Of a DNA stretch of 64,000 nucleotides, positions 4,234 to 24,469 are shown one piece after another. The translations under genes and the position numbers were made by a program. Under the pieces are notes generated by a model that worked only from the letters and a program-made list of their open reading frames with translations, did not search any database and was not told the origin of the DNA. Source of the DNA: Shewanella chilikensis. Its GTDB lineage: Bacteria > Pseudomonadota > Gammaproteobacteria > Enterobacterales > Shewanellaceae. Positions within the stretch are counted from its first letter, which is position 1, and each line of letters starts with the position of its first letter. The stretch is from assembly GCF_002836945.1 (NCBI RefSeq), contig NZ_NIJM01000024.1, positions 1 to 64,000 on the forward strand, in the 5' to 3' direction.

Positions 4234-4259
4234 GCGCCGATAATCGGCATCCAAGCAAG

Positions 4260-4284
4260 AAGGCGACTCAGGGTCGCCTTCTTT
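4260..4284 (+). terminator. terminator after the S9 peptidase gene
   Basis: An 8-bp stem (4260-4267 with 4273-4280) is followed by CTTTC. It sits between the S9 gene and the convergent LysE-family gene and may serve both. Confidence 0.7.
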
Positions 4285-4310
4285 CATATTAATGCCACGA
4301 AAAGCGAACA

Positions 4311-4895
4311 TCAGAGCATGGGTACTATGGATGCCAGCAAGAGACCGCCCATCAACAAGTTAAAACCACGGGCGTAGTTGGGCGCCGTCAGCCAGCGACT
4401 CAACTGTTTGCCGATAAGGGTCCAGATACTGACAGACGGGACATTGACCAAGGCAAATATTACAGAGATCAGCAACAACTGCTGCCAACTGGCACTCGGG
4501 TTGTAAAGACTCACCGCCGCCAGCGCCATGGACCATCCCTTGGGATTGAACCACTGAAACAATGCCGCTTGAATGAAGGTCATGCTGCGATAACCTTCAT
4601 TGGTATTTCCCGGACGACTCAAGGCGATTTTCAGCGCCAGATACACCATGTAGGCAATACATAGCAAACTCAGTAACTGGTGCAACCAAGGATAGGCCTG
4701 AAACAAGCCGGTCACGCCGATACCCACCAACAACAGCATCAGGCTGAACCCCAGTACTATCCCCAGCATATGCGGTAAGGTGCGAACAAACCCCACATTG
4801 GCACCTGAAGTCATCAACATGATGTTGTTGGGCCCTGGGGTCACGGTTGAAACAAAGGCAAACATCACCAAAGGCCATAGCAGATTAGGCTCCAT
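4311..4895 (-). CDS. LysE/RhtB-family amino-acid exporter
   Basis: Inner-membrane efflux protein of 194 residues with about six hydrophobic segments. The N-terminal TPGPNNIMLM motif is the hallmark of the LysE/RhtB superfamily, and the general pattern resembles the cysteine/O-acetylserine exporter EamB. I chose ATG 4895 over the in-frame ATG 4928 because an AGGAG site precedes it at the right spacing and it begins as family members do (MEPNLLWP). It is divergent from an Lrp/AsnC-type regulator 108 bases away, the usual arrangement of an exporter with its amino-acid-responsive regulator. The substrate is not determinable here. Confidence 0.85.
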   Translation of the reverse strand: MEPNLLWPLVMFAFVSTVTPGPNNIMLMTSGANVGFVRTLPHMLGIVLGFSLMLLLVGIGVTGLFQAYPWLHQLLSLLCIAYMVYLALKIALSRPGNTNEGYRSMTFIQAALFQWFNPKGWSMALAAVSLYNPSASWQQLLLISVIFALVNVPSVSIWTLIGKQLSRWLTAPNYARGFNLLMGGLLLASIVPML

Positions 4896-5003
4896 TCTTG
4901 CTTTACTCCTGAAATAAGCAGTCAGCAAATACTAGATGGATTGGTACGCAATTTTGTGCTTATATTTGCTCTTAAAGCGGAAAGTAAGCAATAAAACATC
5001 ACC

Positions 5004-5447
5004 ATGGATAGATTTGACGAAAGAATATTGCAAGAGCTACAGAGTGATGGCCGGATCTCCAATGTCGAGCTGGCCGAGCGGGTGGGATTATCTCCCTCTG
5101 CCACCCTGAGACGGGTACAGGAACTGGAGCGAAAAAAGCTGATCACGGGCTACCGGGCCGTATTGGACAAGAGCCAGCTGAACATAGGTTTTATTGCTTA
5201 CGTCGCCATAGGCCTCAACAGTCACAGTAAACAATCCCAGTTAGGCTTTGAAGAGCATATCCGCTACGCCAGGGAAGTAGTAGAGTGCCACAATATCACA
5301 GGCGCCAACGAATACTTGTTGCGGGTCGAGACCAAAGATCTCAGCAGCTATAAACGTTTTCATGCCGAAGTCCTCGGGGAATATCCTCAAGTCAAATCCA
5401 TTACCACCATGGTGGTAATGGATTCACCGAAAGATCAACGTCAATAA
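5004..5447 (+). CDS. Lrp/AsnC-family transcriptional regulator
   Basis: DNA-binding regulator of 147 residues. Residues 1-60 form the winged helix-turn-helix (FDERILQELQSDGRISNVELAERVGLS...), and residues about 65-145 are the RAM/AsnC ligand-binding and oligomerisation domain. The length is typical of the family. It is transcribed away from the LysE-family exporter, so it probably senses an amino acid and controls that exporter and itself; this is an inference from context. The AT-rich 4896-5003 spacer would contain its operator. Confidence 0.9.
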   Translation: MDRFDERILQELQSDGRISNVELAERVGLSPSATLRRVQELERKKLITGYRAVLDKSQLNIGFIAYVAIGLNSHSKQSQLGFEEHIRYAREVVECHNITGANEYLLRVETKDLSSYKRFHAEVLGEYPQVKSITTMVVMDSPKDQRQ

Positions 5448-5565
5448 TTATCTGCGATAAACCGCATAACAAGCGGTATTGCTGGCGACACTTTTTATCC
5501 TTGGGTACCATTGAACAATAAAGAAGCGCCTGGACATGCCGGCGCCAGGGAAAATGGATACTTGA

Positions 5566-7317
5566 ATGGAATTGAGATACGCGTTGCTGTGCCTGTTTTT
5601 GCTGCTAACCAGCCTAAAACCATTTGCATTAGAGCAGGTTAAACTTCCCGTTATTAATATAGAACAAAGCAGCGTCGCGCTTGATGAATTCAAAATCGGC
5701 TATTTCATTGATGACAGCCAAAACCTTGGCTTTGAGCAGGCACGCCAGAAGCCTTTCGGCGTAACCGATAATGTCACCACCTTGGGTACCAATGCCAGGG
5801 TCACCTGGTTCAAGCTGATACTGCACAATAGGCTCTCACAGGCAAAGCCACTGTTTTTACACCTGCCCCATGCTTACCATGTGCAGCAAATCGACATCTA
5901 TGAGGAAAGCGGCCAACAACTGCAGCGACACGAGCAGTTGGACCTCGAACAGGCCGCCAACAACCCGCTCATGTATCGGGGTACAGTCGTCTACCCATTG
6001 AAGCTGGCGCCAGATCAGATAACAACCCTGTATATTCGTAGCCACGCCTACTCCCATCAATGGTTTGCCATGACACTGATGGATGGAGAAAATTCGCGGC
6101 GGGCCCTGGTGAGCACTCACTATGATATTGCACTTATGGTGGGCATGTTGCTGGCACTGGTGTTCTACAACTGCCTGCTGTATTTCGCCACCAGTAAGAA
6201 AGAGAACATCTACTATTCGCTGTATCTGATCTCGGGTCTGGTGTGGATAGCCCTGTCCTATGGTCTAGTTGCCAGCGTGTTCAACGCCTACGGCTCGAGC
6301 GTCTTCATGCTCAATCTGTCGCTGCTCACCATGCCGATTTTCCTGCTGCTGTTTATGACGGCTATTTTCGAGACCAGAAAGTTCTACCCCACAGAGCACA
6401 AGGCGCTACAGCTGATGCTGTTACTGCTGCTAGCGACCTTGTTCTGGGGCTTATTTGATATCTCAGCAGCACTCAAACCCGCCAGTAGCCTGGCAGCACT
6501 CATGATGTTGGTGACCTTCTCTGTGAGTATCTCCCTATATCGCAAGGGCAATCCACTGGTGAAGTACTTTCTGGTAGGCCACAGTTTTTTTGTTATCTTT
6601 AATGGCATAGCCGTGCTCTTCTACAAGGGATTGATCTCTCCGAGCTATCTCAGCAGCCACGGAGTCGGCATAGGCATTATGCTGGAAGCCCTGACCCTGG
6701 CGTTTATCATCTCCTACAGGATCAAAATCCTTGAGGATATCCGCGCCTCGCAGGAAGAGCTCAAGCGCCAGGCGGCCACAGACCCTCTGACCAAACTCTA
6801 TAACCGGCGCTATTTCTATTCTGAGGCCGACTATCAACTTAAGCTGGCCGGCCGCAATGGCGAGGCTATCTCTGTGCTTATTCTGGATATAGACAGTTTC
6901 AAGCAGATCAACGATAACTTTGGTCACCACTTGGGCGACAGGGTGATAGTCGCCCTGGCCAAATTATTGAAGCAACACTGCCAAGGAGCCGAGATGGCGG
7001 CCCGCTTCGGCGGTGAAGAGTTCGTGATCTTGCTGCCGGGAGCCCCACTAAACCAAGCCTTGCAGCGAGCCGAGCAGCTGCGCCTCAATGTCGAAGCGAT
7101 GCAGCTAACCGCCGACACGGGAGACAAGATAAGTTGCACCATAAGCTTGGGCATCGCCGAGGTTGAAATTGCAACAGAATCGATAGAAGCGGCCGTAAAA
7201 CGAGCCGACCACGCACTTTATCAAGCCAAAAACAGTGGCCGCAATCGGGTCGTCGCCAATTCAAGCGCTGGCGACCAAGGGGTAAATACCGACATTGAAA
7301 TCAATCCAGGTCTTTAA
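5566..7317 (+). CDS. membrane diguanylate cyclase with 7TMR-DISM sensor
   Basis: Probable c-di-GMP synthase of 583 residues. Residues 1-22 are a signal sequence, about 30-170 form a periplasmic 7TMR-DISM extracellular domain, and about 185-385 hold seven predicted membrane segments. A GGDEF domain runs from about 400 to 565 with the active-site GGEEF at 482-486; the pattern is that of a catalytically competent cyclase. The [12 protein letters not shown] motif that begins the domain is intact. The 3' end overlaps the convergent mtgA gene by 17 bases. The ligand of the periplasmic domain is unknown. Confidence 0.9.
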
Positions 7318-8017
7318 GTGTTTGCCGCCCCAATTGCCGCATCTGCTGCTGGATCCAGTCGGCGCGGCGGTTCATGTAAGCACTCGGTGGATCGATTTGA
7401 TATTGCCAGGGATTAGGCAACAAGGCGGCGAGCAAGGCGGCCTCGCGGGACGACAACTGAGCGGCGCTCTTATGAAAGTAGTGCTGCGCCGCCGCTTCGA
7501 CGCCGTAGATCCCCGGGCCGAATTCGACAATATTCAGGTACAACTCAAGGATCCTGGGCTTATCCAACACCAGCTCCAGAAGCAGAGTGAACCAGGCTTC
7601 AGCTCCCTTGCGAATAAAGCTGCGCGAAGACCACATAAACAGGTTCTTGGCGGTTTGCTGGCTCAAGGTGCTGGCGCCCCTGAGACGCTCCCCCTGAAGT
7701 TTTTCCTCTATGGCATTCTGAATCGCCTTGAGATCAAAACCGGAATGAAGGGCAAAACGCTGATCTTCACTGGCGATCACCGCCAGTTGCATATTGGCAG
7801 ATATCTGAGTCAGCGGCTGCCACTGATGCTGCACCTGGCGCTGTACCTGTGTTACCGGCGCCGGTGGAAACCAATAGCGTTCAATACGCCAGCTCCACAG
7901 CGGTGGGTTAACAAACTTAAGCGCTATCACCATCAGCAGAGACAGTACCATCAGCCCCAACAACAGTTTTATCAGCCAGCCTGTCAGTCGCCTAAACCAT
8001 CCCTTTTTCGCGGCCAA
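7301..8017 (-). CDS. mtgA: monofunctional peptidoglycan glycosyltransferase
   Basis: Polymerises lipid II into glycan strands at the outer face of the inner membrane. The GT51 domain is evident: [14 protein letters not shown] carries the catalytic glutamate, followed by [14 protein letters not shown] and [16 protein letters not shown]. One membrane helix (about residues 9-30) precedes it. There is no ATG at the proper place; the frame could open at 8161, but TTG at 8017 lies 6-7 bases after AGGAG and gives 238 residues, the usual MtgA length. The 3' end overlaps the facing diguanylate cyclase gene by 17 bases. Confidence 0.9.
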
Positions 8018-8204
8018 ATTCGCTCCTGATAAATAAGCCCACCTGAACTTGAGTGCACCTGAAACTGAGTGAGCCAGGAAACCCTCTGTGAATAATAATT
8101 GAGTATTTTGCCAGGTGCGAACCCGGCCCGGAATGACAATCTGTAAGCTTATCCGGAGCACCCGGGAGACTCAGCGGCACTTTTCTTAGCCCGTTAGTCA
8201 GCGC

Positions 8205-8876
8205 TCATTGGTCAGGGCCAAAGCGGCCGCGCTCAAGAAAGCCCTGTACTGCCGCCAGCGTATCCTGATGCCAATGTATGGCCTTATGGCACAGGGGCAA
8301 CACCATCCAATCACTGGCATCATCACAACGGGTGGACGCCAGGGGTACCCGGCCATCGGACTCGCCGTCAATCAAGGCGCCCAAGGGATCTTGAGTCCCA
8401 CTGCCGGCGATGATCCCAAGATGAGCCTGACTATCCTCGCGCCAACTTGCCCAGCGCTGCCCCGGCAGCAGAGATTGCAGCGGCTGAAATAGCCGGGAAT
8501 ATCCCGGAAGCTTATCGGCCAGGCTCGCCAGCGGTGAACCATCATGGGGCGTGGCAATAAACACACTGTGGCCCAAATTGTCGGGCGGCTGCTCTGCCAG
8601 CAGTTGCCGAACAATTAAGCCTCCCATACTGTGCGCCACAAAGTGCACCCTGGGATACTGCTGCCATTTCTGCTCATCCAGCGCCTGGCGTAAGGTCACT
8701 ACCGCTTGTTGCAGTGAGCCGAAACGGGTGGGCAATCTGGGGCACAGGATACTGTATTGCCGAGCCAAGCCTTGGGCCAGAAAGCCCATGTCACGCTCAT
8801 CTTTATTGAAGCCATGCACCAGCACCACCAGGGCTTTGCTGTTATCCAGCCTCAAATTAGCTGACTCTTGAGCCAT
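8205..8876 (-). CDS. alpha/beta-hydrolase (lipase-like)
   Basis: Cytoplasmic hydrolase of 223 residues if started at ATG 8876. Motifs are VLVHGF (oxyanion region), the nucleophile elbow AHSMGG, ATPHDGSPL typical of PGAP1/lipase-like members, and a C-terminal His in CHKAIHWH. No signal peptide is seen with this start. The frame continues upstream to 9086, but that stretch overlaps trxC and looks non-coding. The gene starts inside the last 25 bases of trxC, so the two are probably translationally coupled; no strong ribosome-binding site is seen. The substrate is unknown. Confidence 0.75.
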   Translation of the reverse strand: MAQESANLRLDNSKALVVLVHGFNKDERDMGFLAQGLARQYSILCPRLPTRFGSLQQAVVTLRQALDEQKWQQYPRVHFVAHSMGGLIVRQLLAEQPPDNLGHSVFIATPHDGSPLASLADKLPGYSRLFQPLQSLLPGQRWASWREDSQAHLGIIAGSGTQDPLGALIDGESDGRVPLASTRCDDASDWMVLPLCHKAIHWHQDTLAAVQGFLERGRFGPDQ

Positions 8877-9277
8877 TGCTGGAATGCCTGTTTGGGCATG
8901 GCACCGGCCTGCTGGGCTATCACTCGGCCATTTTTGAACAGCATTATGGTCGGAATGGAGCGGATCCCATACTGGGCCGCCAGCGCTTGCTGAGCTTCGG
9001 TATCCAGCTTGCCGAAACGAAACTCCGGCTCCAGTTCGGCAGCGCTCTGCTCGAATATAGGAGCAAACTGTTTGCAAGGGCCGCACCAGCCGGCCCAGAA
9101 ATCCACCACCAACGGCAGCTCTGACTTATGGGCATGGTTGGCAAAGTTGGCATCAGTCAGTTCTACTGGAAGGCCTAGAAACAAAGGCTGCTTGCAGTGG
9201 CCGCACTTAGGGCCTTGAGACAGCCGTTCTTCCGGCACCCGGTTCATTCCAGCGCATTGGGGACACGCAATCAACAT
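8852..9277 (-). CDS. trxC: thioredoxin 2 (TrxC)
   Basis: Cytoplasmic disulfide reductase of 141 residues. The N-terminal zinc-binding module has the CPQC and CGHC pairs, which distinguish TrxC from TrxA, and the thioredoxin fold follows with active site WCGPC and the cis-proline motif SIPT. Length matches the family. It is followed, with a 25-base overlap, by an alpha/beta-hydrolase gene. TrxC is commonly linked to oxidative stress, but I see no obvious OxyR site upstream. Confidence 0.93.
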   Translation of the reverse strand: MLIACPQCAGMNRVPEERLSQGPKCGHCKQPLFLGLPVELTDANFANHAHKSELPLVVDFWAGWCGPCKQFAPIFEQSAAELEPEFRFGKLDTEAQQALAAQYGIRSIPTIMLFKNGRVIAQQAGAMPKQAFQQWLKSQLI

Positions 9278-9342
9278 AGGACTCTCCTCTCAAGCGGCAT
9301 TATCGCCGCACACTGTGAAATAGGGGACGGCGTTAAACCGAC

Positions 9343-10083
9343 TCAAGCCAGATGAGGTCGCAACAGGGCCAGCACCTGGGGATAATCGGCCTGGTTATCC
9401 AAGGTCAGACTCAGATAGCCATCACCGCGAAAGGCCCGGTCCAGCTCCAATAGCAGATGGGTTTGCTCGCCATCGGGAACCAGGGTAAGTTCCACTTCAC
9501 GCAAAAGGCGGATCCCACGCCCTGTGGGTACAAACTCCAACTCCTGATAGCAGCCTGAACCACTGCGAAAATCAGAGGTGTTGATATAGCCTTGCTCGAC
9601 ATCGGCTTTTTTAAGGACAAAGCCCAACTCCTCCATGGCCTGCAGCAGGTGCAGCAACAGCTGGGTAGGCTGGATCTGCAGCAGATCCTGATCGCCTGGA
9701 TCTATGGCGTAATCTATCGCCAGCCCGGTTTGCAGCCAGACCCGGCATTGATTGTTACGCACCGGCAACTCGGTAAATGGGGTCTCAGGATGCAACTGAC
9801 CGATAAAAGGCAACTCTCTCACCTCTCCGGCCTGAAGTTCAAAGCCTTCGCTGATACGCCAGCTGGCCAGACAATGATTGATAAAATGACTGCTGTCGCC
9901 ATCACTGACCTTAACCCGAGTCATAAGGGCCAGCTCCAGGCCGGCAATACTCTGGCTTACCTCGCCGCCCTTGAGCACGATTCGGGCTTCGAAGGTTTGC
10001 CCAGGTTGCAGGCTGGCATTGAGCAAACGAGTATCGACACTGGCGCCGCCAACGCCAACTGCAGCAAGCAATTTCTTAAACAT
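9343..10083 (-). CDS. Spo0M (SpoOM)-family protein
   Basis: Predicted cytoplasmic protein of 246 residues resembling the Spo0M family of arrestin-like beta proteins found in sporulating and non-sporulating bacteria. It starts MFKKLLAAVGVGGASVDTRL, with alternating beta-strand patterns (EARIVLKGGEVSQSIAGLELAL) typical of the family. ATG 10083 is preferred to the upstream in-frame start at 10119 because it begins where family members begin and AGGA precedes it. The biological role in non-sporulating bacteria is unclear. Confidence 0.75.
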   Translation of the reverse strand: MFKKLLAAVGVGGASVDTRLLNASLQPGQTFEARIVLKGGEVSQSIAGLELALMTRVKVSDGDSSHFINHCLASWRISEGFELQAGEVRELPFIGQLHPETPFTELPVRNNQCRVWLQTGLAIDYAIDPGDQDLLQIQPTQLLLHLLQAMEELGFVLKKADVEQGYINTSDFRSGSGCYQELEFVPTGRGIRLLREVELTLVPDGEQTHLLLELDRAFRGDGYLSLTLDNQADYPQVLALLRPHLA

Positions 10084-10250
10084 CCTCTGTTCCTGTTTAC
10101 TTAAAAGGCCTTGCCGCATTTAAGCCCCTTTTCTTCGGCGAGTAAAGGGCGAACGCATTGGCTGTAAACTCCCAAACCCAACAAGCAGGCAGCAACAAAA
10201 CTCATTCTGAGCCAGTTAAAAACCAGAGGCCGGCAAAATCATCCTCCTAA

Positions 10251-11303
10251 TCAGGGATGGCGTAAACGGACTTCTGCCAAAATCGGTGTATGGTCGCTCG
10301 CCTGGGCATCCAGTTCAAACTGCGGCCGCAGCAGATGCCTGTCATAAACCCGGTAATCTGCCACTTCTGCCAAACTATGCTGACTGCGGGCATCAAACTC
10401 CTGACTCAACAACAGATAGTCGACCACACTGCCTTGAGAACCATGAAAATGGGTCACGGGGCGAGTCACTGTCACTTGCTCGCCACTTTGCTCAGAGGCT
10501 TCTCGCCAGAGCTGCCAGGCGTCAAACAGTTGAAAATGCGCCAGCTGCAGTTTCAGCCTTTCATCTGGCAGGCCGTGAAGGCCCGCAGCGCGAATATCCC
10601 CGTTATAGAGCTGCCCGGCACCCACCAACAGGCCCTTGAGTTCACTGGAATCTATGCCGGCGTTGAAATCCCCCATCAGCACCACAGCATTGCCGCTTTG
10701 CCGGCGCCGCTTGAGTATCGCCTGATACAACAACATGGCCTCACTGCCACGCTGCAAAGTGGCTGACCATCGGCCCAGCGCACTCTCGGCCAGCAGCCCG
10801 GCGGCACCTTGCAACTCGACCGCGCCCTTGGGCAACTTGTTGCGAGGTGATTTGAAATGCACCACGTAAGTATCACAGTGGCCTATCCCCGGCAGCATCA
10901 AGGTGGCTCGCAGTATCTGGCGACTACTTTGAAACTCTTCCTTGAGTCCAAGTGAAAATGCCAGTTCGCTATCCAGCTCCACCGCCGCCAAGGAAACAAT
11001 CGGAAAACGGCTTGCCAGTGCCACCACACTCTTGCGGGCAACAAAGCCTTCTATGACCGGCGAATCTACCAGCGCAAAGTGGGCAAGACCGGCAGCCTGA
11101 CACAATTCGCGTAGCGGCTCGGGGCTGAATAACTCCTGCCAGCCCACCAGATCTGGCTGCGCCTGCTGCAGCCAGCGGACTGTCCAGTCGCACTTTTGTT
11201 GCCACTGCCCTTGGGTATAGATGTTGTTGAACTCATGAAACGCCAGCGGCGGCATGGCAAAATTGAACAGATTCAGACTCGCGATGCGGATATTGGAAGA
11301 CAT
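10251..11303 (-). CDS. endonuclease/exonuclease/phosphatase-fold protein
   Basis: Member of the EEP superfamily (DNase I, exonuclease III and inositol-phosphatase fold), 350 residues from ATG 11303. Visible motifs are the N-terminal ASLNLFNF (metal-site Asn), WQEL (catalytic Glu), LMGDFNA (Asp/Asn pair) and the C-terminal ASDHTPI (catalytic Asp-His), all in the expected order. No signal peptide is seen with this start. Whether the substrate is DNA, RNA or a phosphodiester lipid or sugar cannot be told. The in-frame extension to 11393 is probably not used. Confidence 0.8.
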   Translation of the reverse strand: MSSNIRIASLNLFNFAMPPLAFHEFNNIYTQGQWQQKCDWTVRWLQQAQPDLVGWQELFSPEPLRELCQAAGLAHFALVDSPVIEGFVARKSVVALASRFPIVSLAAVELDSELAFSLGLKEEFQSSRQILRATLMLPGIGHCDTYVVHFKSPRNKLPKGAVELQGAAGLLAESALGRWSATLQRGSEAMLLYQAILKRRRQSGNAVVLMGDFNAGIDSSELKGLLVGAGQLYNGDIRAAGLHGLPDERLKLQLAHFQLFDAWQLWREASEQSGEQVTVTRPVTHFHGSQGSVVDYLLLSQEFDARSQHSLAEVADYRVYDRHLLRPQFELDAQASDHTPILAEVRLRHP

Positions 11304-11507
11304 GAAAAGCGCTGCGGCTCCGGTAACCCTGCTGAGTAATAGTGTTGATATTAAGCCGCTGCTGAGATTTGTCCAATAGCACACCAAAAACAACCTTCCG
11401 GCTACCCATTACCCCCCAACAGCGCCCAATAGCCCAACAAATAAGCAACATAAAGCCGCTGTTTGTGGCTAAAAAAACCTGTTTGACAGGCTTTTTCGAT
11501 CTCCCGC

Positions 11508-11535
11508 TTGACTTGTTTGGTTTCGACCATACAAT
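11508..11535 (+). promoter_or_regulatory. sigma-70-type promoter of the outer-membrane protein/mgtE operon
   Basis: A TTGACT -35 element (11508-11513) and a TACAAT -10 element (11530-11535) are 16 bases apart. The predicted start near 11542 would give a leader of about 318 nucleotides before the first structural gene. Confidence 0.6.
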
Positions 11536-11541
11536 CGCCGC

Positions 11542-11859
11542 TTAATTAACCATACGGAGACCCACTGTGGACACACACATAGGTGACAGTAGATGCCCTG
11601 TCAGTCAGACAGGATTATTTGCCCGGCACTAGTCTGCAGCTTCGCAAACTACTGCCAGGACTGGCAGTAGCGTATTAAAGAATCCCTTTTTCCGTTACTC
11701 CCCATAAAAACCTTGTTGAGCTTTACATGCATACGCATGCCGCAGTGTTCTCCTGTGGCTGCAAACTAATGCATCCATAAAGGTTTTTTACTTAGGACAG
11801 CCTTGCTGCCGCTGCCCCATCTACGACCTTGAGTGTTCCCCCACACAGGAGGAACAAGC
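11542..11859 (+). promoter_or_regulatory. long structured 5' leader upstream of outer-membrane protein and mgtE
   Basis: About 318 nucleotides between a good promoter and the first structural gene hold several hairpins. These are a 6-bp stem at 11597-11613, a 10-bp perfect stem at 11649-11670, and a long hairpin in which 11706-11714 pairs with 11780-11789, with nested ATGCAT/ATGCAT and GCAG/CTGC pairings. The last ends in a T-run, as an intrinsic terminator would. I could not match it to the M-box (ykoK), mgtA or yybP-ykoY riboswitches by eye. Because the operon encodes an MgtE magnesium channel, ion-responsive control is plausible but inferred. Confidence 0.45.
11567..11632 (+). CDS. possible 21-residue leader peptide of the mgtE operon
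   Basis: A short frame starts at GTG 11567, 25 bases after the predicted transcription start. It has ACGGAGA eight bases upstream and stops with TAG at 11630-11632. It would encode 21 residues beginning MDTHIGDSRCPV. Its end precedes a strong hairpin at 11649-11670. The position recalls leader peptides of magnesium-transporter genes (mgtL of enteric mgtA), but the sequence is unrelated to MgtL and no experimental support is available. Confidence 0.3.
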   Translation: MDTHIGDSRCPVSQTGLFARH

Positions 11860-12510
11860 ATGAAACTCAGATATACCAATACGCTGCTGCTGGGCGGCCT
11901 GCTCTGGCATGGACAACTGCATGCCGGCATTCAGTTGCTGGAAGATCCCGATATTGCCGCTGCCACAGAACTCGCTGTCGACTGGCAACGACAAGCGGGC
12001 AACAACGGCTTTGCCCTGGGGCTCAACCAAGCCGTCTTTGGCGGCGAATTGGCGCTGGAACTGCAAACAGACGACCGGGATGCCCCCTGGGACAGACATG
12101 AGAGCCGCGGCTGGCAACTCGGCTACAAACAACCGCTGGCCACAAACGGCTTATCTCAGACTCTGGCACTGGAGCTGGGGCGTCATCACAGAGATGGCTG
12201 GCAGGGTCACGCCCTGGTCAGTAGCGATCTGCCGATTGCCACCCAGGGCTTCTTTGTGCGCAACAACTTAGGGCTGAGCCTGGAGTCGGGGGAAGGTCCG
12301 GCAATGATTTTTGGCCTGGGAGCCGGCTTCAAAGTTCAGCAGCAAACTCTGCTGTTTGAAAACCAGTATCTGGGCCAAGGCGACTATGGCTACCAGCTAC
12401 TCTGGCAAAACCAACCCAACGCCCATTGGCAGTGGCAATTGGGTTATGGCAATCAGTATGGCGGTGGCGCCCGCCAATTTGGCGCCGGCATACAATTTTT
12501 CTTTTCTTGA
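11860..12510 (+). CDS. small outer-membrane beta-barrel-like protein
   Basis: Exported protein of 216 residues that starts at ATG 11860 directly after AGGAGGAACAAGC, an excellent ribosome-binding site. Residues 1-21 are a signal peptide ending LHA. The mature part has alternating polar/aromatic strands (FGGELALELQ, YGYQLLWQN, WQWQLGYGNQYGGG) and ends in FGAGIQFFFS, with a terminal aromatic cluster as in outer-membrane barrels. I recognise no named family. It lies 22 bases ahead of mgtE and shares its leader, so it may help cations reach or cross the outer membrane, or be an envelope sensor; both ideas are inference. Confidence 0.6.
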   Translation: MKLRYTNTLLLGGLLWHGQLHAGIQLLEDPDIAAATELAVDWQRQAGNNGFALGLNQAVFGGELALELQTDDRDAPWDRHESRGWQLGYKQPLATNGLSQTLALELGRHHRDGWQGHALVSSDLPIATQGFFVRNNLGLSLESGEGPAMIFGLGAGFKVQQQTLLFENQYLGQGDYGYQLLWQNQPNAHWQWQLGYGNQYGGGARQFGAGIQFFFS

Positions 12511-16528: not shown

Positions 16529-16813
16529 TTAGGCCTCTGGCTCTATCTTATTGATACTGCCCTTATAGCCGGTTTCATCCACCGCCTTTATCAGCGCATC
16601 CATATCAAAGCCTTCAGGCACTATCACTCTGGCCTGCTGGGTCTTGAGCGAGGACTTGGCCTTAATAACGCCCTCTGTCTTGCGCAGCGCCTTGTTGATT
16701 ACCGTGACACACAAAGGGCAGGTCATGCCTTTAACATCCAGGGTAACCACCTGATTGCCCGCCCAGGCAAACGGCGTACACAGCAGCAGTAAAACCAGTA
16801 ACAAGCTTCTCAT
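16529..16813 (-). CDS. MerP-like periplasmic heavy-metal-binding protein
   Basis: Exported HMA-domain protein of 94 residues. Residues 1-18 are a signal peptide ending AWA. The ferredoxin-like metal-binding domain carries GMTCPLC, the conserved two-cysteine metal site of MerP and copper chaperones. The gene overlaps the MerT-like gene by four bases (ATGA). In mer operons MerP passes Hg(II) to MerT. Here no mercuric reductase or MerR is present, so the metal could be mercury or another soft metal such as copper. Confidence 0.82.
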   Translation of the reverse strand: MRSLLLVLLLLCTPFAWAGNQVVTLDVKGMTCPLCVTVINKALRKTEGVIKAKSSLKTQQARVIVPEGFDMDALIKAVDETGYKGSINKIEPEA

Positions 16814-17172
16814 TCAAACACCTCTAACAGCCAAGGTAATACAAAAGGGTAAAGCTGAAACGCCAAGACCACAGGCACGGCCAGCCAATAGAGCAGCAAC
16901 ATTCTGGTGCGGCTCATGGTCGCGGTGCACAGAGGCTTTTTGGAGAAATACAAACGCCAAAAGCCCAGCAGGATCAACAGAGTCGACAACGCCAGCATGG
17001 GTATTTGCAGCCAGCCCAGCTGTTCAATGCCCGACAGCGAGGCTGCCGATACCCCAAAAACCAGATAGATCAGCGGCCCAATACAGCACAGGCTGGAGGC
17101 GACGGCGGCAACAACGGCTGCTGCCAGTGTCGCCAAAAACCCCTTAGAGCTGTTCTGTTGACTGGAAATCAT
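16810..17172 (-). CDS. MerT-like inner-membrane metal transporter
   Basis: Small membrane protein of about 120 residues with three hydrophobic segments. The motif SLCCIGPLIYLVFGVSAASL in the first helix is the cysteine-pair signature of MerT. A further cysteine, in KPLCTATMSR, sits after helix two. It starts inside the 3' end of the transglutaminase gene: ATG 17172 is my choice, with an alternative at 17193, and neither has a clear ribosome-binding site, which suggests translational coupling. Together with the following MerP-like gene it forms a metal-uptake pair without other mer genes nearby. Confidence 0.8.
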   Translation of the reverse strand: MISSQQNSSKGFLATLAAAVVAAVASSLCCIGPLIYLVFGVSAASLSGIEQLGWLQIPMLALSTLLILLGFWRLYFSKKPLCTATMSRTRMLLLYWLAVPVVLAFQLYPFVLPWLLEVFE

Positions 17173-18286
17173 AGGCGAAAACTTTAGGGTCATAGTAGTT
17201 CACAGGGTCGCCATCCACTTCGGCATAAGGGTAGCCAAAGTTGTTCAGCGGCGTCTGCTCGGCCATAGGCGCCAGATCGAAGTCGCGACCGAAGTTGAAA
17301 CCAACCCAGTTCATCTCCCAGTTACCGAACAGATAGTCGTTGACCGCCTGCACATCGGGATCCTGGTGTTGCTTGTTCTCGGTCAAACGCATCTTGGTCA
17401 CATCCGCAGGGTCGGCCGGCAACCAGCCGTAACCCGCCAGATAGAACATGGCGCGGCAGTGCTGACCACCACTGACCTTGGCCAGGCCATAGGCATCACT
17501 GCTGCCGAAGGCTTTCTTGGAGTATTTGCCCATCTTAATAGCCTGTCCTACCCGGATCCCGAACATCTCCCGCGCCGGAATACCGGCGGCACGAGCCAAG
17601 GCCACAAATACCGAGTTGATATCAGTACACTTGCCCCCCAGTTTGCCGCTCTCGAGAATAGTGGCCACATCACCCGTACCGCAACCGATAACGTCGTTGT
17701 CGCGGAACATATTGGCGCTGACCCAGTTGTAGATGAGACGGGCCTTTTGCAGCGGATCGGTTTCCTTGCCAACAATCTTGTCTGCAGTCTGCTTCACTAT
17801 GCCATCAATGGGCATATGCTTGGTGGGCAGCAGATAGTGTTCCACATCCACCGGGTACTGGATAGTTTCGGGGGCGCGATAATGTTCGAGTTCACCGTTT
17901 TTCAGCGGTTCCCAGTCGAGGGTTTCCAGCTCCATCACCAACTGCAGTTCCATCTTGCCTTTGGCATCAGGCCAAGTGGCAAATAGTGTCTTGGCGCCAT
18001 AGCTGTTAGCGGCAGTGATGTAAGCGTCCTGGAAATTGCCTTTGAAATTCAGCTTACGAACTTGCTGAAACTGGGTGTCTTCCACCAGCGGGATCCACAA
18101 CTTGACCACGCCCTCTGAGCCCTCGGGTGCAATCAGTTGGTAATCTTGAGTCAGGGTGAAGTGTCTGCGGCCGTCGGCGGAATAATGCTCGACGGCCTTG
18201 GTCTTCGATGTGGCCGCCATCACAGGGCTGATGATACCGGCCGTCGACAAAATAGCCGCAGTTTTTAAAAAATTGCGTCTTTGCAT
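17144..18286 (-). CDS. Tat-exported transglutaminase-like cysteine protein
   Basis: Predicted exported protein of 380 residues. The N terminus MQRRNFLKTAA carries a twin-arginine motif, followed by a hydrophobic region ending PVMAA. The transglutaminase core spans about residues 170-300 with Cys220 in GGKCTDINSVFVALARAAGIPAR, His276 in GGQHCRAMF and Asp292 in GWLPADPAD, a complete Cys-His-Asp triad. A transglutaminase-like protein may act as a protease, amidase or crosslinker, and the substrate is unknown. It is the first gene of an operon with MerT- and MerP-like genes; that linkage is unusual. Confidence 0.85.
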   Translation of the reverse strand: MQRRNFLKTAAILSTAGIISPVMAATSKTKAVEHYSADGRRHFTLTQDYQLIAPEGSEGVVKLWIPLVEDTQFQQVRKLNFKGNFQDAYITAANSYGAKTLFATWPDAKGKMELQLVMELETLDWEPLKNGELEHYRAPETIQYPVDVEHYLLPTKHMPIDGIVKQTADKIVGKETDPLQKARLIYNWVSANMFRDNDVIGCGTGDVATILESGKLGGKCTDINSVFVALARAAGIPAREMFGIRVGQAIKMGKYSKKAFGSSDAYGLAKVSGGQHCRAMFYLAGYGWLPADPADVTKMRLTENKQHQDPDVQAVNDYLFGNWEMNWVGFNFGRDFDLAPMAEQTPLNNFGYPYAEVDGDPVNYYDPKVFAYDFQSTEQL

Positions 18287-18349
18287 TATTCGATTCCTTA
18301 CGTTTGATTAACAGACGAGTCAATGAGGTGCCCGCTGGCGGGCAGAAGC

Positions 18350-18378
18350 ATTATAAGTGGCGGCCCCTGGCACCGCAA
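18350..18378 (-). promoter_or_regulatory. promoter of the transglutaminase-merT-merP operon
   Basis: On the minus strand a perfect TATAAT -10 (18350-18355) lies 17 bases after TTGCGG (18373-18378). The start would be near 18343, about 57 bases before the ATG at 18286. The -35 matches only three of six bases. Confidence 0.5.
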
Positions 18379-18559
18379 CAAAGCCGCAGACACAGGGTTA
18401 GTGTAGCCAGAGTCATCAGTAAGGTGGAATAATAAGAAAAATTAACAAGTTTGCGAGACAAAACAACCATATTGGTCATCTTGTCTCGCCTTACGTTTAC
18501 CAATGTAAAGCCGGTATTGCAGACGGAAAACCGGCGCCGGATCACATTCTTACCTGGGC

Positions 18560-19780
18560 TTATCTCAGCCCCACTTCCACGTCGCGGATAATGAAGTTAC
18601 CCGAATAAAGCGGATGGGGTTCACCCAAAGGCTCCAGGGCAAAGAAGCGCTTGTGCTCTTCACTGAGCCCCTCGAAGCCGCCTATCACCTGATAGAGCCA
18701 GCTTTCCGGATCCCAGGACAGCTGTTGCTGCTGCAGATATTCCAGCGCCGAAGTGTTGCGGCCCGAGTCAATGACGGCGCAGAAGTACTCATCTACCGCC
18801 TCTTTGAGCGGGTTATCCGGCATATCAAAGTCTTCCTGAGGATTAACCGCAACCGGCACGTCGTGCTCCTGCAACCTCTTGGGCAGATGGTCACGACTGA
18901 TAGCCTTGATACGGGCCACCATCTCCATCAGTTGCAGTTCCTGGCCGCTGTTATTCACATCCACAGATGCCGGTGCCAGCAAGGCCTCGGCATGATTGAA
19001 CAACACAGGCACCTGCTTGTGCGCCACATGGTCGGCTACCTGATAGTCGGGGTGCAAATCTGTATACAGCAACCAGCCTTTGAGCAAACGGGTACGACCG
19101 CGGATCTGCCTGAAGCGTCCCAGCAATTCCAGCAGACGCCCCTGCACCACGCTCAGCTCCTGGGTGCAATCGCTGAGGGTCTCCTGCAACATGGTCACCA
19201 GCAGGCGGCGCAGTTCACGGATATCACCGGCAATTTCGCCAAGCTCGGTAAACTCAAACAGCTCCAGGCCGTTAAGCAGTTCCGATACCTGGCTCTGGGC
19301 CAGCTCGTTTTCACGGATCTTGGCGTTAATTGAACCCACATAACCGAACTCATTATTGATCCGGCCCCAGAGCACACGAATGGAGTAACGCAGGCTCTCG
19401 GTGAAGCTGAATACGTGTTCGGTCAAGTCCGCCAGATAGGCCTCGGCGGCGCTGTAATCCACACTGGCGCGCGCCTCACGGTAGTGATTGGCCAAGGTCT
19501 TGATGGTGGCCAGGGCCGAACCGACGTTGGCGTTGATCTGGCGGTTACGCTCATCCTTGAGGCCCTCTTCCAGCAGGGCCCTGACATTACGCGACAATCT
19601 GAGCGGTTCGTCCGGCTCGGGACGCCAAAGAATACCGTTGTCGGTAAGCTTCTTCAGCAGCGCGGGTTCCTGCCGGGTCTCGTCCAAGCTACCGGAGAGA
19701 TAGGCGTCCATCACCAGTTCGGCGTTACGCCCAAGCAGCCTCAGCAGCTTGACCCCGGCCTGATGCAGGTTGCTGCTCAT
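18560..19780 (-). CDS. MksF/kleisin-like subunit of a condensin-like complex
   Basis: Cytoplasmic protein of 406 residues, third gene of a three-gene operon. It is largely helical with long amphipathic stretches (ANVGSALATIKTLANHYREARASVDYSAAEAYLADL; SELLNGLELFEFTELGEIAGDIRELRRLLVTML), as expected for a winged-helix and coiled kleisin that bridges an SMC dimer. Assignment rests on length, helicity and the preceding MksE-like and SMC-like genes. I do not see a motif that proves the family. Its ATG overlaps the stop of the MksE-like gene (ATGA), indicating coupled translation. Confidence 0.6.
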   Translation of the reverse strand: MSSNLHQAGVKLLRLLGRNAELVMDAYLSGSLDETRQEPALLKKLTDNGILWRPEPDEPLRLSRNVRALLEEGLKDERNRQINANVGSALATIKTLANHYREARASVDYSAAEAYLADLTEHVFSFTESLRYSIRVLWGRINNEFGYVGSINAKIRENELAQSQVSELLNGLELFEFTELGEIAGDIRELRRLLVTMLQETLSDCTQELSVVQGRLLELLGRFRQIRGRTRLLKGWLLYTDLHPDYQVADHVAHKQVPVLFNHAEALLAPASVDVNNSGQELQLMEMVARIKAISRDHLPKRLQEHDVPVAVNPQEDFDMPDNPLKEAVDEYFCAVIDSGRNTSALEYLQQQQLSWDPESWLYQVIGGFEGLSEEHKRFFALEPLGEPHPLYSGNFIIRDVEVGLR

Positions 19781-20427
19781 ATCAGATCCCTCTGGGTGGC
19801 AGTTTCAGCCTGAGCCTCCAGACTGAGGCCCTCGGTTTCATCGATAAAGCGGATCACTTCGTAGAGGTAATCCAGCTTGCCGGTGGCGATATAGATCTGT
19901 TTTTCCGGATTCGGCCGCACCAGATAACCCAGCTCCTGCAAGCGCTTGAAAACCAGTTTAATCTGGCCATCGACACTGCTTGAGCTGGAGCCGAACAAGC
20001 GATACTGGCTCAGCTTGGCCAGTTGCTCGCGAAACGCCGGCGTATCCTCAATGCGGCTCTGCAATTCGGTAAGCCGCACCGCCGCGCCTTCAGTCAGGGG
20101 CGCGTCCTGGCCGCTGGCTTCCTGCACCAATACCAGCCATTCCACCATGGGGATCAACGCCTGGCAGATATCGCGAAACTGCGCCGAAATCACTTTGCGC
20201 TCGTCCTCCCCCAACTGCAGATAACCACAGAAAAAGACTTCGCCCTCGGCGGCCTGGGCCACAGTGCGGTTGATTTGGTTGAGATAGGCCTCGACTCTGT
20301 CACGGGTGGCCGGACTCTTGAGTGAACGCCAACCTTCCTCATCCGTGGTGCGGCAGATAAATTCACCCTTGAGCAGACGTTCAATCAGGGCGCCTGAGCC
20401 GACGATGGTACTTTGCAATTCGCTCAT
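19777..20427 (-). CDS. MksE-like subunit of a condensin-like complex
   Basis: Cytoplasmic protein of 216 residues, second gene of the operon. Its C-terminal part, from YRLFGSS through VFKRLQELGYLVRPNPEKQIYIATGKLDYLYEVIRFIDE, has the helix-helix-wing pattern of MksE/MukE winged-helix proteins that bind the kleisin. The N-terminal LLKGEFICRTTDEEGWRSL also suits that group. The gene begins at ATG 20427, sharing one base with the stop of the SMC-like gene (TAATG). It ends in a four-base overlap with the MksF-like gene. The tight spacing argues for a stoichiometric complex. Confidence 0.65.
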   Translation of the reverse strand: MSELQSTIVGSGALIERLLKGEFICRTTDEEGWRSLKSPATRDRVEAYLNQINRTVAQAAEGEVFFCGYLQLGEDERKVISAQFRDICQALIPMVEWLVLVQEASGQDAPLTEGAAVRLTELQSRIEDTPAFREQLAKLSQYRLFGSSSSSVDGQIKLVFKRLQELGYLVRPNPEKQIYIATGKLDYLYEVIRFIDETEGLSLEAQAETATQRDLI

Positions 20428-23400
20428 TACACCGCCTCCTTGGCCAAGCGCTCAGAGAGCTTTTGCGCTATGGGATCGACCTTGGGTTTAACCACCTGCA
20501 GTCGCTTGGTCTGCTTGTTGATGATGTAGCGATTGGCAAACAAATTCAGTACCTCGGACTCAGGGTTGGGGAAAGCACCCAACACGCTGATATTGTTGTT
20601 TTCACAGGCATCGAAGATCTTCTTCACGTTAGCGTGGTGCAAGGTGCCCAGCTCATCAATCGGCCAGTGCACAGTGACATCCGCCTTGCCCCGCAGCAAA
20701 CGGGTAAAGGCCAGCAGGAACTTACAGAGGATCAGATAAGCCATACCATGACTGGATGACTCGTTGAGCTGACGGTCGGTGCGGATCACCAGATCCGAAT
20801 TGCCTTCCTTGAGGCGCAGCTCAATCTCCAGCAGCTTGGCGATGCCGCCGGTCAGGGCCGAGCGGCCTATGATATCCAGCGCCCGGCGCATGCTGTTGGT
20901 ATAGTGCTCATCCGGCAGGCCGGTGAAGCCTTCGGCCTTCCAGGCGCGGAACGCCTTAACGAACTGCTCCAGCTCAGGCCAGAACTCCAGCTCACTGATC
21001 CGCGAGCGGATCCTGACCGCAGATTCAGAGACGCCTTCAAGAAACAGCTCCTCCCCGACTTCGCGGGTAATACGGGCACTTTGGGAGGCAATACGGCGGT
21101 CGATATCGGCCAATACATCGTAAAAGGCAGTCAGGTCGACACCGAAGATCCGGCCCTGTTCACGCAGCGCGGTAATCGACTGCGGCACCATCACATTGAG
21201 CAACTGGGCCAGATGCGGCACCAACTTGCGGTAATCCAGCAGGCGTATGCCCTTGTCATTGACAGAGCTGGACTCTTCACGGGCCTTTTCCCAGAACTCG
21301 GATAGGCTGGAGCCTGACTTGCTGGCAATCACCTGATCGAAATGATCCACATACTGCCTGACCGAACCCAGCAGATGCTCGCGCTTGAGCAGCAGCTCCT
21401 CGCCCTGACGCAGACGTTCACCCAGGCTACCCTGAGGCTCTTCATCGTTGCGCGGCAATTTCAGCTCGGCCAGCTTACGCAGCAAGGCGCGCAACTTGGT
21501 GAGGTTTTCCGAGGCCTCTACCTGAGCGGCATCAGACTGGCGCCTTTGTAGCTCCAGTTGCTGGCGGGCATGTTTGACTTCGTTGGCCTTGGTTTTCAGC
21601 TGCTGATCCAGCTCGGAGGCGGCGCGCTTGACTTCGCCCAGGTCGGTCACCAACTTGGGTTTACGCACCAGCCAGGTATGCTGATACCAGTCGTCATAGC
21701 GCAGCACTTCACTGCGACGCTGCTCGGCAGCGGCAATGGCACCTTCCAGCTCACGGATCTCCCGCTTGAGGGCGAGAATTTTGTCTTCATCCACCCCGCG
21801 GGACTTAAGCTCATTCTTGTACCACAGCTCGCAGGCTTTTTGTTCCTCTTTGGCACGACTGCGGCGCTGATTGATGCTCTCTTTGAGCTGCTCCAGATGC
21901 TGCTCCAGCGCGCCAACCACTTCCTGCCAGTAGGCGTTCTTTTCCATTCTGGCATCCAGCGCCTGCTCTTTGAGCTCCTCCAGCCATTCCAGGTGCTGGT
22001 TACGCAGCTGTTTCATCTCCTGATCCAGCAGCGTCAGGCGTTTACCGGCCTGTGCCTTACGCTCAGCCAACGCCTTGTTGATCTGCTCCTGCACAGTGCG
22101 GCGCTCCTCGAACAGACGCCGCAAATCGTCACGCAAATTCTTGTATGCCGTGCGGGCAAAGGTCAGCTCACGGTTCAGTTTATCCAGTGCTTCGTTGGCC
22201 TGCACCAGGCGCTCTTCCGCTTCTTCCTGCAGCCCATAGGCGTTTTGCAGGGCATCTTCGGCCTTGGCCAGCTTTGCCCTCAGCTCAGGCTCTGAACTGG
22301 CGTATTCGGGGATTTCCAGCGCCTTGAGATCCAATGAGATCCCAAAAAGGCTGTCACTTTCGGCGCCGACATTGGGGTGCAAGTCGGTGCGGTGCAGCAA
22401 GTCGGGATGTACCACCTTGCCCAGGTGCTGCTCCCAACCCGGCACTTCTTTTCGCAGGAACTCCAGCAAGGTGTGGGACTGAGGGAACAGCATGTGTTTG
22501 AGATCGTCCAGATCGCCCTGGCGCTCCGTGACTCTGAGCGCGGCAATTCTGAGTGATTCGCTGGCCTGATCCCTGAGTGAGCGCTGTTTGCGCTCTTCGC
22601 TCATCAGCCGCTCCACCTTGGCGTTGGCAGCCTCCTGCTCGGCATCGGCACGGTCGATACGCTCGTCGAATACCGCCAGGCTGAGCTTCTCCTCCTCGGT
22701 ATAAGTCACACTGTCGACCTGCAGCTTGAGCTCGGCCGCATTGAGCTTGAGTTGGTACTCCTGCTCCTGGAATTTGGCCTTGCCGTTTTCCTGCTGCTCA
22801 CGGAATTCGGCATCGAGGCGCGCCAAGTCTTCCCGGGCCACTTCACGCTGCTTGTCGCGGGCCTCGCGTTGCTTATCCAACTCTTGTTGCAGCTTTTCCA
22901 GCTCCTTGTTGAGCTGTTCGCCAATCTTGCTGCGGCGGGCGTTATAGGCGGCTTCTATATCCTGATGCTTCTCTGTTTGCAGCTTGTGTCTTTCGCTGAG
23001 GTTCTCAAGATCGCTACGCCACAACGGCAGCTGTTCCAGATTGGCCTTGGCCTGTTCGATATCGGCATCGAGAAACGCCGCATGTTGGTTTTCGATGGCG
23101 TCGAGTTCATATTCCAGCTTGGCGACATCGCCCTTGGCGGCAGACAGCTCCTGGTTAAGCTCATCGCGCTGCTCTTTCCACTCATCGTCCAATGCCTTGA
23201 GACGGAAGTTCAGCTCCCGCGACAGGGTCTGATTTTGCTCCTGACGCTGGGCCTCCAGCACTTCGTCATTGCGATAGCCCTTGGCCAGGCTGCCAAGACG
23301 CAGTTCGGCCGACAGCAGCTCGTTGAACTCCTGCTCCAGCTTGTCAAATTCGGGACGGATCTGCTCGAACCCGGCGATCAGCTGGCTCTCGCGGATCCAG

Positions 23401-24098
23401 GCCTCGACGCGTTGTGGATTAAGCCTTGATGCCGGCGGGTTAACGCCATCCTCTTCCAAAATGGCGGCGATCATCGACTTGACCGTTTCCATTTTGCCTT
23501 CTTTGGAATGCACCGCCTTGGCCAGTTTTTCGATATGGCGCAGTGAATGGTCGGCCTCGCACAGAGAGAACAAACGGGCATAGCTGCGCAGCTCTGTGCG
23601 GCTGGAACCTGTGTTCAGCAAGGTACGGTCATTCTGGATGATGGCGCGAAACTCTCGGGTATTCAAAAGCTTGGTATGGTTCACTCCGGCGCGTTTCATC
23701 TCGCTGCCCAGTTTAGCCATGGTATGGCACAAAATAGTGTCGCCGTTTTGGGACTTGATATAGTCTTCCAGTTCAAATCCCTTGGCGATAAAGCGATAGT
23801 TGACCCCTTTGCCATCGCCGGCCGAGGCCAGCACCGCCTGATACAGCAAGCCATCACTCTTTTGGTATTCGTAAATGATATAGCTGGATTCTCTGGGCAG
23901 ATACCAGCGCTCGAAGCTGTCACGGGTCGAAGGCACGACCCGGCTGGGGTATTCACCATAAAACACAGGCACCAGACGCTGCAGCGTGGTCTTGCCCGAG
24001 GCGTTGGTACCACAGATATTGGTATGACCATCGAGCTTCAGTTCCACCACGCCCGGCAGATGGGTGTCGATCAGCACTATTCGAATCAAGCTTGGCAT
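20427..24098 (-). CDS. SMC/MksB-like coiled-coil ATPase (DUF3584 type)
   Basis: Large ATPase of 1223 residues, first gene of the trio. The Walker A GTNASGKTT is at residues 30-38, and WYLP (65-68) follows; GKT and YLP are the two motifs I recall for DUF3584. Two long charged coiled-coil arms (about 255-530 and 660-900) flank a hinge-like region. The C-terminal head has the ABC signature-like NESSSHGMAYLILCKFL and Walker B VTVHWPIDELG. I chose ATG 24098, with AAGGA seven bases upstream, over the in-frame ATG 24128. By analogy with MukB/MksB it would entrap or extrude DNA. No JetD-like nuclease gene is adjacent. Confidence 0.8.
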   Translation of the reverse strand: MPSLIRIVLIDTHLPGVVELKLDGHTNICGTNASGKTTLQRLVPVFYGEYPSRVVPSTRDSFERWYLPRESSYIIYEYQKSDGLLYQAVLASAGDGKGVNYRFIAKGFELEDYIKSQNGDTILCHTMAKLGSEMKRAGVNHTKLLNTREFRAIIQNDRTLLNTGSSRTELRSYARLFSLCEADHSLRHIEKLAKAVHSKEGKMETVKSMIAAILEEDGVNPPASRLNPQRVEAWIRESQLIAGFEQIRPEFDKLEQEFNELLSAELRLGSLAKGYRNDEVLEAQRQEQNQTLSRELNFRLKALDDEWKEQRDELNQELSAAKGDVAKLEYELDAIENQHAAFLDADIEQAKANLEQLPLWRSDLENLSERHKLQTEKHQDIEAAYNARRSKIGEQLNKELEKLQQELDKQREARDKQREVAREDLARLDAEFREQQENGKAKFQEQEYQLKLNAAELKLQVDSVTYTEEEKLSLAVFDERIDRADAEQEAANAKVERLMSEERKQRSLRDQASESLRIAALRVTERQGDLDDLKHMLFPQSHTLLEFLRKEVPGWEQHLGKVVHPDLLHRTDLHPNVGAESDSLFGISLDLKALEIPEYASSEPELRAKLAKAEDALQNAYGLQEEAEERLVQANEALDKLNRELTFARTAYKNLRDDLRRLFEERRTVQEQINKALAERKAQAGKRLTLLDQEMKQLRNQHLEWLEELKEQALDARMEKNAYWQEVVGALEQHLEQLKESINQRRSRAKEEQKACELWYKNELKSRGVDEDKILALKREIRELEGAIAAAEQRRSEVLRYDDWYQHTWLVRKPKLVTDLGEVKRAASELDQQLKTKANEVKHARQQLELQRRQSDAAQVEASENLTKLRALLRKLAELKLPRNDEEPQGSLGERLRQGEELLLKREHLLGSVRQYVDHFDQVIASKSGSSLSEFWEKAREESSSVNDKGIRLLDYRKLVPHLAQLLNVMVPQSITALREQGRIFGVDLTAFYDVLADIDRRIASQSARITREVGEELFLEGVSESAVRIRSRISELEFWPELEQFVKAFRAWKAEGFTGLPDEHYTNSMRRALDIIGRSALTGGIAKLLEIELRLKEGNSDLVIRTDRQLNESSSHGMAYLILCKFLLAFTRLLRGKADVTVHWPIDELGTLHHANVKKIFDACENNNISVLGAFPNPESEVLNLFANRYIINKQTKRLQVVKPKVDPIAQKLSERLAKEAV

Positions 24099-24271: not shown

Positions 24272-24469
24272 TTATTCAGGTTTGAACAGGCCTATCACTT
24301 CACCGGTCGCCTTGTCGCTGACCTTATCATCGGTCTGCTGCTCGCGGTAATCACACTCGACACACTCGACCGTTTCTATGCCGTTCTCCTTGAACAGCAC
24401 TATGCTGTCCTGGGCCTGACATTTGGGGCATTTGGCTCCAGCCACAAAGCGTTTCTTGATCCTGTTCAT
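24272..24469 (-). CDS. yheV: YheV-family zinc-ribbon protein
   Basis: Small cytoplasmic protein of 65 residues. It opens with RKRF-type basic residues (MNRIKKRFVAGAKCPKCQAQDS), has two CxxC pairs (CPKC, CVEC) forming a putative zinc ribbon, and ends in EVIGLFKP. This agrees with E. coli YheV as I recall it. Function is unknown. It is a separate unit 174 bases upstream of the SMC-like gene on the same strand and could be cotranscribed with it. The 285 bases between it and the next gene (24470-24754) hold nothing I can name. Confidence 0.88.
   Translation of the reverse strand: MNRIKKRFVAGAKCPKCQAQDSIVLFKENGIETVECVECDYREQQTDDKVSDKATGEVIGLFKPE

Follow-up and report, generated by a model that had tools for sequence, protein, structure and literature searches.

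A DUF3584 condensin-like operon fixed across Shewanella and repeatedly parted from its nuclease gene

Three tightly coupled genes at positions 18560–24098 (minus strand) of a 64,000-nt stretch of the Shewanella chilikensis contig NZ_NIJM01000024.1 (GCF_002836945.1; the whole stretch is called the window below) encode a condensin-like ATPase and two putative partner subunits. The first gene (20427–24098; all features given here lie on the minus strand) encodes a structural maintenance of chromosomes (SMC)-like ATPase of 1223 aa, counted from its ATG, that belongs to the DUF3584 family and is covered over its full length by the family profile (PF12128, residues 8–1195, 1651.9 bits). Its nucleotide-binding motifs, read from the sequence, sit at the two ends of the protein, as in SMC proteins: a Walker A motif, GTNASGKTT, at residues 30–38 (23985–24011), and, near the other end, a signature-like SMC/ABC motif, NESSSHGMAY, at residues 1112–1121 (20736–20765) and a Walker B motif, (W)PIDELG, at residues 1146–1151 (20646–20663). 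Across an 18-member ATPase alignment, the G, K and T of Walker A, the S-S-x-G of the signature and the P, D, E and G of Walker B were invariant. The second gene (19777–20427) encodes a 216-aa KITE subunit of the MksE/MukE/JetB type, which matched the MksE profile PF21980 with an E value (6e-5) short of the curated cut-off, and the third (18560–19780) encodes a 406-aa kleisin subunit of the MksF/MukF/JetA type, for which no Pfam match was found. An earlier, sequence-only reading had already described this trio, and its coordinates, 1223-residue DUF3584 ATPase and TAATG and ATGA gene junctions were all recovered here; the three reading frames are, moreover, open in nearly every relative.

Sequence searches of the PDB with profiles for the SMC, KITE and kleisin proteins gave no true match, and fold comparison was therefore needed to place the two smaller subunits. 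AlphaFold models of MksE and MksF were built from 24-member alignments. For the MksE model (predicted local distance difference test score (pLDDT) 86.7), Foldseek ranks 1–16 were all JetB or MukE (best match 8as8_C, E 1.4e-4), and VIA-align superposed the model on 8as8_C with a Z score of 9.6 and a root mean square deviation of 6.1 over 174 residues. For the MksF model (pLDDT 80; predicted template modelling score (pTM) 0.42), ranks 1–8 were all MukF or JetA (best match the MukF chain 7nz2_C1, E 3.7e-4); the VIA-align score against MukF (Z 13.1 over residues 1–406) was tied with that of STAT helical bundles, which covered only residues ~67–221, and MukF alone among the top rows spanned the full chain. 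These best matches agree with the MukE and kleisin folds on which the sequence-only reading had staked its interpretation.

To the 3′ side of the kleisin gene, the trio's relatives often carry a fourth gene. The core ATPase was found in all 117 sampled Shewanella genomes (intact but for one genome that has it in two frames and another that has it at a contig edge), most of which are at least 99% complete, although absence calls rest on draft genomes and, the genomes being related, counts are not of independent events. In 54 of the 117, a gene of the DUF7281 family (PF23947) lies directly 3′ of the kleisin gene, often overlapping its end by 12 nt, and DUF7281 genes also follow the kleisin gene in other families. 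The only PDB matches of the DUF7281 profile with E values of 1 or less were Spo11 (0.044) and TopoVI-A (0.059), both marginal and aligned on the Toprim motif, the E…DxD residues of which (E144, D197 and D199) are invariant. Because JetD/MksG, the nuclease of Wadjet systems, belongs to the TopoVI-A-like Toprim proteins (PMC10123090), DUF7281 is, to judge from these alignments, very likely the JetD counterpart. A literature search returned no mention of DUF7281, and the sole DUF3584 match among those listed was an unrelated algal paper.

In the window, the slot occupied by this gene in relatives (18287–18559) is empty: it has no open reading frame of the nuclease family, and tblastn detected no remnant of one. 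Since about half of the genus, as well as other families, have the nuclease gene right after the kleisin gene (an arrangement that the sequence-only reading had missed), its absence here is a derived loss. Nor is a nuclease encoded elsewhere always needed, the eventuality that the sequence-only reading had named as fatal to a stand-alone complex: DUF7281 was absent from the entire genome in 60 of the 117 Shewanella genomes, and JetD_C was absent from 54 of the 56 nuclease-less genomes tested (51 Shewanella and 5 of family f6). Over a tree of 101 concatenated trios, which includes 51 nuclease-less loci, the nuclease state changes at least seven times; if the gene was never regained (losses only, starting from the nuclease-bearing sister genus), 13 losses are counted. 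One such locus (L084, in G015) retains a C-terminal nuclease stump of 41–50 residues behind the kleisin gene, and a close relative (L083, in G024) has the intact gene; no remnant was detectable at the other nuclease-less loci.

The trio has been conserved irrespective of its nuclease. Ratios of non-synonymous to synonymous substitution rates (ω), which are approximate (Nei–Gojobori estimates, with synonymous divergence of up to 1.2), had trio medians of 0.004–0.08, with most values at 0.01–0.08, in nuclease-less and nuclease-bearing clades alike, and the nuclease evolves faster (ω of 0.14–0.19). Nuclease-less clades can be large and lasting, one of them comprising 13 loci. Purifying selection on the trio is thus strong whether or not the nuclease is present, and the trio is therefore needed for something independent of DUF7281. 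Separately, one locus (L100, in G099, a 90% complete draft) has frameshifts in both the kleisin and the nuclease genes; these are probably assembly errors rather than decay, and were left out as evidence of decay.

Both the position and the content of the locus have changed within the genus. As the sequence-only reading had stated, no JetD-type gene adjoins the trio in the window, where its neighbours are yheV upstream (24272–24469, identified from its sequence and a kept neighbour in the window clade) and, downstream, a gene for a transglutaminase-fold protein with a Tat-like signal (17144–18286; PF01841, E 6.5e-23). Seven genomes (that of the window, G005, G030, G055, G065, G073 and G085) have the trio between these two genes, always without the nuclease; in most of the genus, the trio instead lies upstream of a dicarboxylate-symporter-like gene, where nuclease-less loci have a gap of ~400–600 nt. 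The window clade falls within the genus on the trio tree, and the trio was therefore relocated there, not lost. In six further species, a divergent trio at the usual slot replaces the native one, and the four of these six that were placed on a wider ATPase tree group with the clade of Psychromonas and a family, f11, that is described below. The content of the slot is thus swapped in six species, and the complex is lost in none. At these six loci (L162 and L164–L168, in G112, G101, G004, G021, G027 and G074, respectively), the Psychromonas-type trio stands at the Shewanella slot together with a nuclease gene. The seven window-clade genomes also share what follows the trio: in the window (16810–18286), the Tat-signal transglutaminase gene and then a gene for a MerT-like membrane protein.

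By structure, gene order and partners, the trio belongs to the MukBEF/MksBEF/Wadjet superfamily, with SMC motifs at both ends of one protein, an adjoining KITE of the MukE/JetB type and an adjoining kleisin of the MukF/JetA type; it does not qualify as a Wadjet system at this locus, and it is neither MukBEF nor SMC-ScpAB. The sequence-only reading had remarked that the order of the genes is the reverse of the usual one; the SMC-MksE-MksF order is real but is no peculiarity of this locus, being the rule in almost every locus of the family that was read. With Wadjet (JetABCD or MksBEFG, types I–III), the trio has in common the JetA and JetB folds and, in many relatives, a Toprim gene of the TopoVI-A/Spo11-like kind beside the kleisin gene; it differs in having no nuclease here, in that the relatives' nuclease is DUF7281 rather than JetD_C, and in its order (C-B-A-D). 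The PADLOC Jet profiles for types I–III were marginal on the trio (JetC1, E 1.2e-4 over 42 residues; JetB1, E 0.029; no match for JetA), and Wadjet systems are patchy and horizontally spread, unlike the fixed core trio. MukBEF of Escherichia coli and its relatives likewise has KITE and kleisin folds and a long SMC protein, but its gene order differs, its kleisin and KITE are beyond sequence detection from those of the trio, and no MukB hinge (PF16330) was matched in the S. chilikensis genome or in the listed congeners. The trio also coexists with SMC-ScpAB, from which it is distinct: it had no match above cut-off to canonical SMC (TIGR02168), and the S. chilikensis genome has a separate SMC (contig C33, 1146 aa) and ScpB (contig C83). 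Pseudomonas aeruginosa MksBEF shares with the trio a MukBEF-like SMC, a KITE and a kleisin, an operon without a nuclease, and coexistence with SMC-ScpAB; its order is F-E-B rather than SMC-E-F, the SMC here is of the 1223-aa DUF3584 type, and MksBEF has been described as sporadic, whereas the trio is universal in a genus.

Another DUF3584 operon, this one including a Toprim gene, is present in the same S. chilikensis genome and was likewise missed by the sequence-only reading. This operon (L003, G000:C26:88000-107000, at 4022–12401) encodes a DUF3584 SMC of 1243 aa, MksE, a kleisin, a DUF7281 Toprim protein, a WYL regulator and a 363-aa protein, adjoins an IS3-type transposase, and looks like a Wadjet-like defence island unrecognised by PADLOC. 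Its SMC-KITE-kleisin order and protein families are those of the core trio, from which it differs in the nuclease, regulator and 363-aa protein that follow the kleisin, and in subunit sequence (kleisins and KITE proteins are only ~18–23% identical). It is also patchy: such a lower-scoring second copy was found in only 2 of the 117 genomes (that of the window and G112), and related copies occur in the MukB-bearing genomes G225, G325 and G361. The idea that the island nuclease serves the core trio was dropped, given the 60 genomes without any DUF7281 and the divergence of the subunits.

To place the trio among the condensins of the wider order, 296 genomes were surveyed, in which PF12128 scored above cut-off in 105 and the MukB hinge in 119. 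A core-type copy (at least 600 bits) was present in 93 genomes, none of which had MukB; the four overlaps above cut-off between PF12128 and MukB all scored 130–490, and three of them (the MukB-bearing genomes just named) have a DUF7281 gene beside the trio. SMC_hinge (PF06470) proved too insensitive as an SMC marker in this order, having missed the S. chilikensis genome's own SMC, and the SMC protein, TIGR02168 and ScpB were used in its place. By these markers, canonical SMC was present in the sampled core-type genomes of families f1, f2, f6, f9, f15, f16 and f20. In family f11, by contrast, the trio was found in all 22 listed genomes, whereas ScpB and SMC were each found in 0 of the 22, and none of the 22 is among the MukB genomes, which suggests that f11 has no condensin other than the trio. 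This family is very probably Psychromonadaceae, since Psychromonas sp. CD1 nests within it on the ATPase tree. The nuclease is retained by the majority of f11 genomes (the DUF7281 list lacks G295 and G386). Beyond these groups, DUF7281-bearing relatives occur in Halomonas, Stutzerimonas, Azotobacter, Methylobacter, Ferrimonas and others, and plasmid-borne relatives are distant (~22–32% identity). At two f11 loci (L192 and L193, in G221 and G313), ~5 kb of extra genes separate the kleisin gene from the DUF7281 gene.

Together, these results make it probable that the trio is a chromosome condensin resembling MksBEF, that it arose from a Wadjet-like system of four genes and that it can do without the nuclease. 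The analysis shows the subunit folds (through predicted models), presence across the whole genus, recurrent loss of the nuclease, continued purifying selection afterwards and the lack of overlap with MukB; the chromosomal rather than plasmid role, which we infer from conservation and distribution, and the presumed loop extrusion are the interpretive parts of this reading. Two DUF3584 ATPases would be bridged by the kleisin MksF and joined by MksE KITE dimers, and the complex, cycling at the expense of ATP, would engage DNA and extrude it as loops. Its ancestor may have been an SMC-KITE-kleisin-DUF7281 system, the core of which would have become a fixed cell component in Shewanella and related marine gammaproteobacteria, contributing together with SMC-ScpAB to chromosome organisation and segregation, while the nuclease would have become an optional, fast-evolving effector that was deleted repeatedly, the S. 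chilikensis core copy being one such case. Because the DNA-cutting partner, present in about half of the species, has been deleted many times, the data suggest a plasmid-defence machine turned into a chromosome organiser. The sequence-only proposal, an independent complex that organises the chromosome or controls plasmids, is supported to this extent, both the folds and the genomes without DUF7281 or JetD_C being in its favour. Its nearest precedent is MksBEF of P. aeruginosa, a complex that works on the chromosome (PMC7485682) and for which an origin from JetABCD through loss of JetD has been proposed (PMC10586767). A more far-reaching version, in which the nuclease-bearing DUF3584 complex became the chromosomal condensin of a marine gammaproteobacterial group, displaced SMC-ScpAB to become the only condensin in Psychromonas-like bacteria, and in Shewanella shed its nuclease about ten times while keeping the motor, is plausible but must be held more tentatively. 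Several points weigh against a chromosomal condensin: no experiment on the trio complex came to light; SMC and ScpB are present in Shewanella too, so that the chromosome need not be the trio's target; Corynebacterium glutamicum MksBEFG keeps its nuclease and acts on plasmids only, not on the chromosome (PMC7083940); the pTM of the kleisin model is low; a sequence search of the PDB with the SMC profile returned no structure of an SMC protein; and the exclusion of MukB, like the f11 pattern, occurs in genomes that are related to one another and may reflect few independent events.

The best-surviving alternative, which we nonetheless regard as unlikely, is that the trio is a JetABC-like anti-plasmid sensor without a nuclease of its own, which would silence or compact circular DNA, as Smc5/6 restricts episomes, or recruit a nuclease in trans. 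Such a role would fit the half of its relatives that keep a Toprim nuclease in the operon, the DUF7281 nuclease of the S. chilikensis island and the action on plasmids of characterised nuclease-bearing relatives (PMC10123090, PMC7083940). However, universal presence and an ω of ~0.02–0.04 are unusual for defence genes, DUF7281 is missing from 60 genomes and JetD_C from 54 of the 56 nuclease-less genomes tested, the divergence between island and core subunits makes one shared nuclease unlikely, and f11, in which no SMC, ScpB or MukB was detected, has the trio in every listed genome. Less probable still is a housekeeping SMC complex whose role is narrower than general chromosome folding (DNA repair, fork restart or terminus handling, for example); universality alone leaves the kind of housekeeping role unspecified, and coexistence with SMC-ScpAB in Shewanella is in its favour, but the non-overlap with MukB and the f11 genomes point to a condensin. 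A decaying remnant of a Wadjet-like system, its effector gone, would account for the nuclease loss in the window lineage and for the stump in G015, but we reject it as highly improbable, given intact frames at nuclease-less loci, ω as low there as in nuclease-bearing clades, and the persistence of large nuclease-less clades.

The question whether plasmid-defence complexes gave rise to MukBEF and MksBEF by shedding their nuclease is a live one (PMC10586767), and the more far-reaching version given above, if true, would show in progress the passage from defence to condensin that has been proposed for MukBEF. The novelty here lies in scale: the complex is fixed in a whole genus, has parted from its nuclease about ten times, has been exchanged in place and, in one family, is accompanied by no other known condensin. 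Because close species (G015 and G024) differ in the nuclease gene with the trio nearly unchanged, and one family seemingly relies on the complex as its only condensin, the question of origin becomes testable by genetics and chromosome contact maps. The DUF3584 family, fixed throughout Shewanella but without a functional name, also gains a likely function.

Two minor observations came from the wider survey. Two genomes of family f3 (G118 and G143; 2.2–2.3 Mb) may lack every known condensin, since DUF3584, the MukB hinge, canonical SMC and ScpB all went undetected in them. In addition, the locus of a record named Endozoicomonas sp. G2_1 (L239) is identical to that of G121 (family f6) and falls with Alteromonadaceae on the ATPase tree, and the name of the record is probably wrong.

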